Position numbers and translations under genes: made by a program. Under the pieces are notes generated by a model. The model was not told the DNA's origin. It searched no databases and saw only the letters and a program-made list of their open reading frames with translations. Below, one piece after another: positions 6,209-8,611 of a stretch of 64,000 bases of DNA. The DNA comes from Actinomadura sp. DC4 (GTDB lineage Bacteria; Actinomycetota; Actinomycetes; Streptosporangiales; Streptosporangiaceae), in assembly GCF_030406325.1 (NCBI RefSeq), contig NZ_JAUEQY010000020.1, positions 1-64,000 of the forward strand, read 5' to 3'. How positions within the stretch are numbered: position 1 is the first letter of the stretch; every line of letters begins with the position of its first letter.

Positions 6209-6805
6209 TCAGCCCACGAGCTTCTTCGGGTGGTAGGCGTGGTACTGGCTGCCCGAGGCCAGGCCGTAGGTACGGGTGCGGTGGTCGGTGCCGTAGCTGC
6301 CGCGCTGCTCGTACTCCCAGTAGGAGGTGTGCTTGCTGTTCGCCCACTTCTCGAAGATGACGACGTGGCGGGTGTTGCTGGTGCCGGTCGCGTCGATGAT
6401 GAGGTCGCCCTGCTTCAGCGCCGACATCTTGATCTTCGTGGTGACGCTGGACTTGGCCAGGCCGACCGTGTTCAGGCCCGGCTTGCCGAGCGCGAGGGCC
6501 ATGGAGGCGTAGCCCGAGCAGTCGGTGCGGTAGCCGCCGTGCGTCTTGGACTGGCTGTACGGAACGCGCGAGGAGGTGTGGGGGTGCCAGGTCTTCGCGT
6601 TGGCGATCACCTTCGCCCGCGTGATGGTCGCGGCGGCGAGGGGCGCCACGTTGTTCTGCGAGGCGGCCTGGACCGCGACGTTGGAGGAGTCCGGCTTGGC
6701 CGAAGTGGACGTCGTGGTGGCGGCGGTGACCCCGTAGACGGCCGCGGCCGCACCGGTCAGCGCGAGGGCGCCGGCACCGACGCGAACGGCGAGTTGCGTA
6801 CGCAT
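6209..6805 (-). CDS. Secreted NlpC/P60-fold cysteine hydrolase
   Basis: A 198-residue exported protein. The signal segment is residues 1-30 (VGAGALALTGAAAAVYGVTA), followed by an S/T/A-rich linker. The catalytic domain starts near residue 70. GYRTDCSGYASMAL holds Cys96 in the NlpC/P60 DCSGY box, KQGDLII is the conserved GDL turn, RHVVIFEKW holds His147, and YWEYEQRG supplies Glu164 or Glu166 as third residue. It probably cleaves a peptide or amide bond in the cell wall. The ATG at 6805 has GGAG at good spacing; an ATG at 6817 is possible. The divergent gene at 7214 carries a clearly homologous domain without these residues. Confidence 0.8.
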   Translation of the reverse strand: MRTQLAVRVGAGALALTGAAAAVYGVTAATTTSTSAKPDSSNVAVQAASQNNVAPLAAATITRAKVIANAKTWHPHTSSRVPYSQSKTHGGYRTDCSGYASMALALGKPGLNTVGLAKSSVTTKIKMSALKQGDLIIDATGTSNTRHVVIFEKWANSKHTSYWEYEQRGSYGTDHRTRTYGLASGSQYHAYHPKKLVG

Positions 6806-6834
6806 GTGTTTCTCCATCTGATCTCGGGTGGGGA

Positions 6835-6867
6835 TGCGGCATTCCGTCAGGTCGTCGGTATGCCGCA
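6835..6867. promoter_or_regulatory. Inverted repeat TGCGGCAT-N17-ATGCCGCA upstream of the NlpC/P60 gene
   Basis: TGCGGCAT (6835-6842) is perfectly matched by ATGCCGCA (6860-6867), 30 to 62 bases upstream of the minus-strand start at 6805. The word GCGGCATT recurs at 7179-7186 in front of the divergent pseudo-hydrolase regulator, suggesting a shared operator. The remainder of the ~400-base gap 6806-7213 shows no other supported feature. Confidence 0.4.
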
Positions 6868-7168
6868 CGGTCCGAACGATGCATAAACGTAGATAGATGC
6901 GCCGTTGTCCGCCAGAGGATCCGTTGGTCCCGGGACGGAAACATCACCCTTCAGCGGGGCGAACAGGGCATACTTCTGCGACATGGGACAACGGTGGGAC
7001 AGAGGGAGGTGGCTTCTGACCAGCGCCAAAGTAGACGGTTACCCCGTCGACCGGCGGTTTCACCATAACGACTACTCCGAGTATTCGCCCCGGTCGAGAT
7101 CCGTGAAATCGGGCCTCCGGGGTGCCGGGCGTGCACTACAAACGTCGCGTCGGCAAACGTGGCGAAAC

Positions 7169-7184
7169 TGCCGAACTGGCGGCA
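7169..7184. promoter_or_regulatory. Inverted repeat TGCCG-N6-CGGCA upstream of the transmembrane regulator
   Basis: TGCCG (7169-7173) pairs with CGGCA (7180-7184), 30-45 bases before the GTG start at 7214. It includes GCGGCATT, also present in the repeat at 6835-6867. A candidate autoregulatory site for the neighbouring helix-turn-helix protein; this is inference. Confidence 0.35.
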
Positions 7185-7213
7185 TTGGAGATGCTTTAGC
7201 GGAAAGGTAGAGA

Positions 7214-8209
7214 GTGAGTCGTAGTCGACAACTCAGTCCGTTGCCGGACGAACTTCCTCATGCGGTTCGCACGCTTCTGGGCGAGCTCCGCCTCCTGAAG
7301 GATCGCTCCGGCTACGATCTGCGCGCGCTCGCGAGCAAGACCCACGCCAGCCGTTCCTCCTGGGGCCGGTGGCTCTCCGGCGAGACCTGGATCCCGCGTG
7401 AGGCCGTGGCGAACATGGCCTCGCTCTGCGCGGGCGACGCCGACCATCTGAACGCCCTGTGGCAGCGTGCCGAGGACGAGCGGCGGGCACGGCAGTTCGC
7501 CGACGCGGCCGTGGTCAACGGTGCCTCCAGCCAGGTGAACGGCGAGGCCGCCACAGACGGGGCGACCCGCACGATGAGGACGGCCGGCGCCACGCTCCCC
7601 GGGGACCTGACGGCGTCCGGCGGGCAGCCGCCGGCGAAGTCACGCCGGAGTTTGATGATCTTCACGGGCATCGTGGTGGGCTGCGCCATCATCGGCGGCG
7701 CCGCGGGACTCGGCATCGGCCTGTCCCTGAGGGGCGGCCCGGCACAGGGCCCGCGTCCGTACACCCAGTGGCTGGCCAGACCCGAGGTGCTCTCGCGGCT
7801 CCAGATGTGGCACCCGCACAGCGACCAGCGGGTCCCGTACAGTCAGAGCCGCTCCTTCCAGGGGTACCGCACGGACGGCTCCGGCTACGCCTCGATGGCC
7901 CTCGGCCTCCCGACGCCGGGCCCGAACTCCCCGGACCTCGCGTCGGGTCAGTACAGCCACCGGATCACGCCCGCCGAGCTCCTGTCGGGCGACCTGATCA
8001 TCAATCCGACGGGCGACGCCGGGACCCGCCAGGTCATGATCTTCGACAAGTGGCTGGACGGCGACCGCAAGAAGTACTGGGTGTACCAGCAGAGACGCGG
8101 ATACGGCACCGACCACCTGGCGGTTTCCTTTCCGCTGGACGGGAGCAGTCAGTACCACGCGTACCGTCCACTCAACATCCACGACGTCGGCACACCCGGA
8201 CCGCCATGA
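7214..8209 (+). CDS. Membrane-anchored XRE-type regulator with inactive NlpC/P60 domain
   Basis: A 331-residue protein in three parts. Residues ~15-75 are an XRE-like helix-turn-helix (YDLRALASKTHASRSSWGRW) of the actinobacterial type. Residues 147-170 are a single membrane span after a basic stop (AKSRRS), placing the helix-turn-helix inside. Residues ~185-320 are outside and closely resemble the divergent hydrolase: MWHPHSDQRVPYSQ, GYRTDGSGYASMAL, SGDLIINPTG, RQVMIFDKW. The catalytic cysteine is Gly222, the histidine Gln273, and both candidate glutamates are Val290 and Gln292. It therefore cannot act as a hydrolase and probably serves as a ligand or wall-fragment sensor. The GTG start at 7214 follows a purine-rich stretch. 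Confidence 0.8.
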   Translation: MSRSRQLSPLPDELPHAVRTLLGELRLLKDRSGYDLRALASKTHASRSSWGRWLSGETWIPREAVANMASLCAGDADHLNALWQRAEDERRARQFADAAVVNGASSQVNGEAATDGATRTMRTAGATLPGDLTASGGQPPAKSRRSLMIFTGIVVGCAIIGGAAGLGIGLSLRGGPAQGPRPYTQWLARPEVLSRLQMWHPHSDQRVPYSQSRSFQGYRTDGSGYASMALGLPTPGPNSPDLASGQYSHRITPAELLSGDLIINPTGDAGTRQVMIFDKWLDGDRKKYWVYQQRRGYGTDHLAVSFPLDGSSQYHAYRPLNIHDVGTPGPP

Positions 8210-8353
8210 CGGTAATAGCGACTATGGTCGTTTATGGAATGCCGGGTTATGCTCTCGCTGCGATCGCGAAACGCACTTCTACGACTCCGCATAGGACGTC
8301 CGTCAATGGACCGCTCCCATGCCTATCCGCACTGTGAGTCAGGAGAGATGTCA

Positions 8354-8611
8354 ATGCCTGTTTCCCTGCGATCGCGCATCCGGGGCCGCTGGGTCGCCAA
8401 GGCTTCGGCCGCGACGATGGCCGCCGGCCTGGCCGTCGGCATGTTCGCCGGTCCCGCCTCGGCCGCGAACAACTCCTACTGGAGCACCTACTCGTCATTG
8501 TCGGCCTGCCGTGCGGAAGGCAACTACCTGGTGGCGCACCACATCGCGGTGAGCTGGGATTGCGAGCACGAGACGTCCACCTATTACTCCCTCTGGTACA
8601 CGCCCGCGTAG
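8354..8611 (+). CDS. Small secreted protein of unknown function
   Basis: An 85-residue precursor. A clear Sec signal has a basic N-region (RSRIRGRWVAK), a hydrophobic core and a PASA cleavage site at about residue 37, leaving a ~48-residue mature peptide. The mature part is rich in Tyr, Ser and Trp and has two cysteines (SACRAEG and SWDCEHE), which could form one disulfide. The ATG at 8354 is preferred over 8348 because GGAG at 8342 is then eight bases away. It lies 144 bases after the pseudo-hydrolase regulator on the same strand, so it may be controlled with it. No family is recognised. Confidence 0.75.
   Translation: MPVSLRSRIRGRWVAKASAATMAAGLAVGMFAGPASAANNSYWSTYSSLSACRAEGNYLVAHHIAVSWDCEHETSTYYSLWYTPA

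Follow-up and report, generated by a model that had tools for sequence, protein, structure and literature searches.

A membrane helix-turn-helix protein with a catalytically dead NlpC/P60 domain beside its live paralogue in Actinomadura sp. DC4 and related actinobacteria: a candidate cell-wall sensor

How bacteria gauge the condition of their wall and adjust the output of their hydrolases accordingly is only partly understood. A locus of Actinomadura sp. DC4 raises this question in a compact form. In the window, that is, the whole stretch of 64,000 nucleotides analyzed (contig NZ_JAUEQY010000020.1, positions 1 to 64,000), the gene for a membrane protein with a helix-turn-helix (HTH) domain lies divergently beside the gene for a secreted NlpC/P60 hydrolase. 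The outer domain of the membrane protein (below, the fusion or sensor) is a non-catalytic member of the NlpC/P60 fold family. The best explanation of this arrangement, and one that we consider probable, is a one-component wall sensor, in which the dead domain would bind the wall and the HTH domain, on GGGAC[A/G] repeats between the two genes, would set the transcription of the hydrolase. The coding features are as follows.

6209..6805, minus strand: divergent secreted live NlpC/P60 enzyme with Cys, His, and Glu kept (NLPC_P60, E = 3.3e-5; alignment)
7214..8209, plus strand: coding sequence of the membrane regulator (sensor), 331 amino acids, GTG start (open reading frame list, Pfam scan, homologues)
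7256..7498, plus strand: inner HTH_31 (XRE-like) domain, residues 15–95, with ASRSSWGRWL (Pfam; predicted local distance difference test, pLDDT; fold matches)
7655..7723, plus strand: single transmembrane span, approximately residues 148–170, with Lys/Arg before it (Kyte–Doolittle peak)
7760..8188, plus strand: outer dead NlpC/P60 domain, residues ~183–325 (alignment; pLDDT; fold matches; ratio of nonsynonymous to synonymous substitution rates, dN/dS)
7877..7879, plus strand: codon of G222, the site of the catalytic Cys; Gly in 27 of 27 sensors (alignment)
8030..8032, plus strand: codon of Q273, the site of the catalytic His; Glu in 18, Gln in 4, Ala in 3, and Met in 2 of 27 sensors (alignment)
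8087..8089, plus strand: codon of Q292, the site of the triad Glu; Gln in 27 of 27 sensors (alignment)

The outer domain of the fusion aligned with the neighboring enzyme at 47% identity, in agreement with the first-pass annotation of this DNA, and its identity was 47–52% to six other live copies and 36% to a distant one. C48, H99, and E118 of the enzyme were invariant in 19 of 19 aligned live enzymes, and their equivalents in the fusion are G222, Q273, and Q292. At these columns, Cys, His, and Glu were gone in all 27 sensors, so the replacement of the triad that had been claimed from the window alone stood for these three positions; a further candidate for the Glu site, V290, was discarded, its column not being invariant in the live enzymes. 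A profile of the live enzymes had no match among PDB sequences at E ≤ 0.001, and the catalytic columns therefore rest on the alignment of live paralogues, the Pfam match, and the Cys-His-Glu triad given for RipA and RipB in the part of the source drawn on here (PMC12067865). The start of the enzyme was set at the Met of MRTQ, and a GTG upstream at 6868 is also open. Its match to the NCBIfam model of MepS (PRK10838, E = 4.1e-4) was far under the cut-off, PADLOC gave two weak matches (E ≥ 0.012), and its AlphaFold model was poor (mean pLDDT 61.8) and was not used.

In terms of architecture, the inner HTH, the single span, and the outer domain are present in one chain, which is the layout of a one-component membrane regulator, with the HTH presumably facing the cytoplasm. 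HTH_31 was matched at residues 23–82 (E = 3e-9, 37.5 bits against a curated cut-off of 27), and also above the cut-off in the homologues at loci L008, L057, L059, and L095. The Pfam scan (E ≤ 1) otherwise returned only a sub-threshold match to Aca2_YdiL, with none in the outer domain, and scans of the fusion against NCBIfam and PADLOC gave nothing. The main hydrophobic peak lies at residues 148–166 (Kyte–Doolittle 2.11), and one dominant peak (1.48–2.43) was found in 27 of 27 sensors, the next-best windows reaching 0.65–1.45. Together with the conserved intergenic element described below, these results bear out the inner HTH and single span of the first-pass annotation. In the AlphaFold model, pLDDT in blocks of ten residues was 86–97 for residues 11–100, 52–59 for residues 201–220, and 74–96 for residues 221–320, and the structure prediction suggested in that annotation recovered lambda-repressor-like and RodZ-like folds for the HTH part and the NlpC/P60 fold for the outer part. 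A pair of ectodomain cysteines (SYCR and CRP/CHP motifs), possibly forming a disulfide, occurred in all 11 named Actinomadura/Spirillospora sensors (L059–L069) and in none of the four from Actinoallomurus.

Loci were drawn from 60 relatives, 8 members of the genus, GTDB contigs (14 loci), 250 genomes of the family, and 297 of the order, and second copies were dropped (L101, L102, L106–L109, L118, L119, L121, L122, as well as those of Actinoallomurus spadix, A. purpureus, and A. soli from the search of the genus). The family and order surveys scored the best seven or eight candidates per genome, and their weak matches, for example in G297 and G333, were left out of the counts. Among the opened loci, an intact fusion was found in 27 distinct genomes, which the tool labels place in four genera: 4 in Actinoallomurus, 18 in the Actinomadura/Spirillospora group, 2 in genus g66, and 3 in genus g53. 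In all 27, Gly stands in place of Cys and Gln in place of Glu, no His remains at its column, and the divergent neighbor is a live enzyme with Cys, His, and Glu, as expected from the earlier idea of a recurrent fusion beside an active, divergent copy. None of these loci showed an HTH–transmembrane protein joined to a live NlpC/P60 domain, and neither of the outcomes named beforehand as fatal, homologues keeping Cys and His or a lack of relatives with membrane helix and HTH together, appeared among them. Because the GTDB contigs were queried only with two peptides from the HTH part, the loss of the triad in 14 of 14 of their loci was not built into the search. In the order survey, 53 of 297 genomes had matches at E ≤ 1e-8. 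Only one of them, G039, lies outside this family, and its match was confined to the HTH part. Since most genomes of that survey belong to this family, and few were searched outside it (one per species), these searches bound the range of the fusion beyond the family only loosely. Two matches in G342 and one in G293 (L128–L130) were ruled out as sensors by motif scan or reading. G003 has the live enzyme with no fusion detected. In Actinoallomurus soli (L070, 6001–7227), the HTH region of the fusion gene is out of frame next to a short duplication, and no live enzyme adjoins that gene.

The dead domain has a single origin. In a tree of 74 domain copies and 142 columns, the 37 dead domains fell on one side of a branch with support of 95/89, and this branch was present in 96% of 200 bootstrap trees, the bootstrap not having fully settled. 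It is also under purifying selection. By the Nei–Gojobori method (custom script, 12 chosen pairs), dN/dS in 11 of 12 pairs was 0.10–0.32 for the HTH, 0.11–0.41 for the ectodomain, and 0.30–0.92 for the linker; the remaining pair, L105–L120, with a very low dS (0.03–0.08), gave 0.76, 0.71, and 2.61, respectively. The low ectodomain values mean that the dead domain is maintained, as had been supposed from its preserved fold.

What would the HTH act on? The region between the two genes holds a candidate cis-element, composed of the following parts.

6932..6937, plus strand: GGGACG, left member of the conserved repeat set, 64 base pairs (bp) from the right one
6985..6990, plus strand: GGGACA repeat
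6996..7001, plus strand: GGGACA repeat, right member
7017..7024, plus strand: TGACCAGC, which often accompanies the repeats (TGACC[T/A]G in 21 of 27 loci) and is not specific genome-wide

GGGACA was overrepresented in 15 intergenic regions (41 observed vs. 3.1 expected). When the regions of the 27 loci were delimited by constant offsets relative to the two coding motifs, every one contained at least two copies of GGGAC[A/G], and over their 9377 bp, GGGACA occurred 67 times on the sensor strand vs. 5 times on the other. A pair of GGGAC[A/G] copies 62–64 bp apart, or about six helical turns, was present in 24 of 27 loci, compared with a mean of 0.11 and a maximum of 2 loci in 200 shuffles. The inner spacing varies by group (8, 11, or 19 bp) and the outer spacing is mostly constant. 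Nine control regions, from live enzymes with no adjoining fusion, held three GGGACA in 4050 bp and no 62–64 bp pair (0 of 9); the repeat pair was likewise not found in G003, nor GGGACA in the 600 bp upstream of the fusion gene in A. soli. The left repeat lies 124.1 ± 2.5 bp (120–129) from the enzyme start codon in 15 of 15 measured loci, whereas in the same loci the right repeat lies 171.9 ± 27.9 bp (126–212) from the sensor start; for these distances the pair was taken at 62–72 bp, ignoring a further copy in L057 at 24 bp, and L068 was measured from its first and last sites. In the five loci of g53 and g66, the first repeat is 94–100 bp from the enzyme start, which places it 94–129 bp upstream over 20 measured loci. 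This constancy toward the enzyme start, and not the sensor start, points to control of the enzyme gene.

The repeats do not behave as a common site genome-wide in G000, the genome of the window, where the short GGGACA pair was hardly enriched (17 vs. 12 for a control pattern). The composite pattern GGGACRN{41,50}GGGACRN{2,5}GGGACR matched in 13 of 14 searched genomes, also at other places, there mostly through GGGACG copies; it fitted the locus itself in G000, G006, G074, G236, G269, and G272. In G000 it had two matches, this locus and C64:14369-14432 (L131 2870-2933), and the latter, with GGGACG copies only and lying between two divergent genes, was treated as chance. TGACC[T/A]GC followed by GGGAC was rejected as a specific element (97 matches in G000 vs. 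57 for the control). A scan of 6700–8400 for sigma-70 promoters and terminators and an Rfam search of 6700–7400 returned nothing. The shared sites of the first-pass annotation, GCGGCATT, do exist in two copies (6836–6843 and 7179–7186). Neither copy is conserved in G006, the closest relative, while the similar ACGGCATT precedes the enzyme gene of G003, a genome with no fusion detected. GCGGCATT was therefore dropped as an operator, the conserved element being GGGAC[A/G].

From these observations, we infer binding and regulation by the fusion protein, in the following form. A membrane-anchored, one-component transcription regulator would serve as a wall sensor controlling its live paralogue. 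Its outer dead domain would bind, without cutting, the cell-wall element of its live relatives, most likely a peptidoglycan stem peptide, and binding would alter the clustering, position, or conformation of the protein through the one span. The inner HTH units would then engage the GGGAC[A/G] repeats, which lie largely on one DNA face between the divergent genes, and so set transcription of the secreted hydrolase and probably also of the regulator itself. If a sign has to be guessed, activation of the enzyme is weakly favored by repeats that lie upstream of the enzyme start at a fixed distance and at a variable distance from the sensor start.

The dead domain is not confined to the sensor. In the five genomes of g66 and g53, the divergent enzyme is a tandem of NlpC/P60 domains, a live one followed by a dead one, and four of the five encode a further secreted protein with a dead copy behind a domain that looks similar in all four. 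In the one tested (G074, L095), this domain matched a muramidase (PDB 8b2h, E = 8.5e-11); Pfam scans of the two examined proteins, L095 and L097, gave no match.

L095 2853-4001, minus strand: secreted-looking muramidase-like protein with a dead NlpC/P60 domain, beside the regulator locus (also in L096, L097, and L098)

Within G074, and likewise within G116, the three dead copies differ by no more than one base in 366 nucleotides, whereas G074 and G116 differ by 13%, and by 22–23% at third codon positions. Exact repeats of up to 394, 360, and 363 bp occur in G074; those of G116 reach 344, 343, and 384 bp, and those of G205 150 bp, although these assemblies are drafts and repeat assembly could exaggerate the identity. 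The dead copies thus evolve in concert, strongly in g66 and patchily or not at all in g53. Shared copies evolving in concert suggest that the dead domain may be a targeting module that directs sensor and enzymes to the same wall feature, a pseudoenzyme domain serving both as sensor and as secreted targeting module and homogenized by gene conversion in some genomes. We put forward only tentatively, as somewhat less probable than even, the wider idea of a hitherto undescribed class of wall-homeostasis switches, in which a dead copy on a membrane DNA-binding protein would directly read what the live hydrolase acts on and would set transcription of that hydrolase through helically phased GGGAC[A/G] repeats. 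In some genera, the same module would also target secreted hydrolases, and gene conversion would keep the copies alike, so that one wall site is read by sensor and enzymes.

The wall-sensor reading has to be set against several others. Dead paralogues that regulate live ones are known (PMC5201418, from the part of that source used here), and the domain might instead be mainly a partner of the live enzyme, binding or shielding it or its substrate at the membrane as an activator, inhibitor, or anchor, with any DNA binding concerned only with the level of the regulator itself. The constant pairing with a live paralogue and the union of dead and live domains in one polypeptide in five genomes agree with this, but the distance of the repeats is fixed relative to the enzyme start and not to the sensor start, and the near-identical dead copy on the muramidase-like protein of two genomes fits a wall-binding module better; we regard this alternative as unlikely. 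That the repeats serve another regulator, the fusion controlling other genes or none, is compatible with a link by association and with the further HTH_31–transmembrane proteins of related genomes. However, repeats and intact fusion occur together in 27 of 27 loci, the repeats are missing at A. soli and nearly so at the nine enzyme-only loci, and the GGGACA pair is hardly enriched in G000, all of which makes this quite unlikely. A very unlikely reading is a scaffold like RodZ, which has the same order of HTH, transmembrane span, and outer domain, belongs to the MreB system, binds MreB, and is not known to use its HTH for DNA; here the HTH would bind an inner protein, and the dead domain would tie the cytoskeleton or division machinery to the wall. 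The resemblance lies in the HTH fold match and the domain order. Finally, a decaying enzyme fused by chance and functionless might be read from the lost catalytic residues and the broken gene of A. soli, but a single origin, persistence in 27 genomes with Gly222 and Gln292 invariant, and an ectodomain dN/dS of ≤ 0.41 in 11 of 12 pairs leave this scarcely credible.

Several points weigh against the wall sensor. The evidence for it comes from sequences, structure models, and genome comparisons, and every search for the fusion started from the window protein or proteins related to it. The HTH fold also fits RodZ, and a Foldseek search of the regulator against the PDB listed the same folds among its matches, none of them at E ≤ 0.001. 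The HTH is linked to the repeats by association, across related species whose counts are not independent; the 62–64 bp pair is missing in L057, L058, and L068, and the composite pattern fits the locus in only 6 of 12 searched intact-fusion genomes and occurs elsewhere as well. A. soli is a single lineage whose frame break could be a sequencing fault, and the ectodomain dN/dS of 0.71 in L105–L120 was obtained at a dS of only 0.08. The sensor and enzyme dead copies have diverged to 81% (G213) and 78% (G156) DNA identity, and the dead copy of the third protein is only 60–64% like the other two in G205 and G213.

The first-pass annotation knew of no described system of this type; taken as a claim of novelty this was too strong, since RsgI6, BlaR1, and RipD are precedents for parts of it. 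The DNA-binding domain of ToxR and CadC is a winged helix (Trans_reg_C), which was not found in the fusion by the Pfam scan (E ≤ 1); here, HTH_31 is joined to a dead peptidase ectodomain, and the likeness is one of design, not kinship. What is shared, according to the portions of the sources consulted, is an inner DNA-binding domain, one span, and an outer sensor in one polypeptide (PMC7496328, PMC3096576, PMC6320335). RipD (Rv1566c) is likewise a non-catalytic NlpC/P60 protein, and it binds peptidoglycan (PMC12067865), as the fusion may do by analogy; unlike the fusion, it is not described in the part of that paper used here as membrane-anchored or DNA-binding, and its substitutions differ from the Gly, Gln/Glu/Ala/Met, and Gln seen here. 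In RsgI6 of Clostridium thermocellum, as far as the consulted section of PMC4711584 goes, a transmembrane anti-sigma factor carries an enzyme-derived outer sensing module, a GH10 ectodomain with very low activity that binds carbohydrate and is 57% identical to Xyn10D. RsgI6 acts through an anti-sigma domain and a sigma factor on plant polysaccharide, whereas the fusion has its DNA-binding domain in the same chain and probably senses its own wall; the Pfam scan found HTH_31 and no RsgI_N domain. BlaR1/MecR1, in the passages of PMC9834060 relied on, are membrane sensors with an outer domain related to class D beta-lactamases that control the genes of a divergon, including a hydrolase. Their mechanism, with covalent acylation, an inner metalloprotease, and the separate repressor BlaI, is different, and neither a membrane metalloprotease domain nor a beta-lactam-binding sensor domain was found in the fusion (Pfam scan; one dominant span). 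Among the titles listed by a literature search in which subscription journals were thinly covered, none described a protein uniting a killed wall-hydrolase domain, a DNA-binding chassis, a live paralogue, and conserved repeats; the parts have precedents, and the combination is absent from the papers listed.

The pattern across these soil actinobacteria suggests wall sensing with direct control of an enzyme gene, and the locus is a compact testable system of one sensor, one enzyme, and one short intergenic region, for which natural variants are at hand in A. soli (enzyme and repeats absent), the enzyme-only relatives, and the tandem-domain relatives. The other actinobacterial HTH_31–transmembrane proteins that were read share a similar chassis (HTH, linker, and one hydrophobic span by eye) with other ectodomains, suggesting a general chassis with exchangeable sensors. 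Two neighboring HTH–transmembrane genes of G057 (L110 3751-6037) have such a chassis, one of them with another, possibly wall-related, sensor, whose outer domain we take to be PG_binding_1-like. Among the live NlpC/P60 enzymes, those at L100, L103, and L104, which no fusion adjoins, have an extra conserved C-terminal domain (WVDTF..GYREPN..NYVYC). In the window, the regulator gene is followed immediately by the open reading frame at 8234–8611 (plus strand), which contains a small secreted-looking protein at 8348–8611, with a signal-peptide-like start followed by approximately 50 residues with two Cys.
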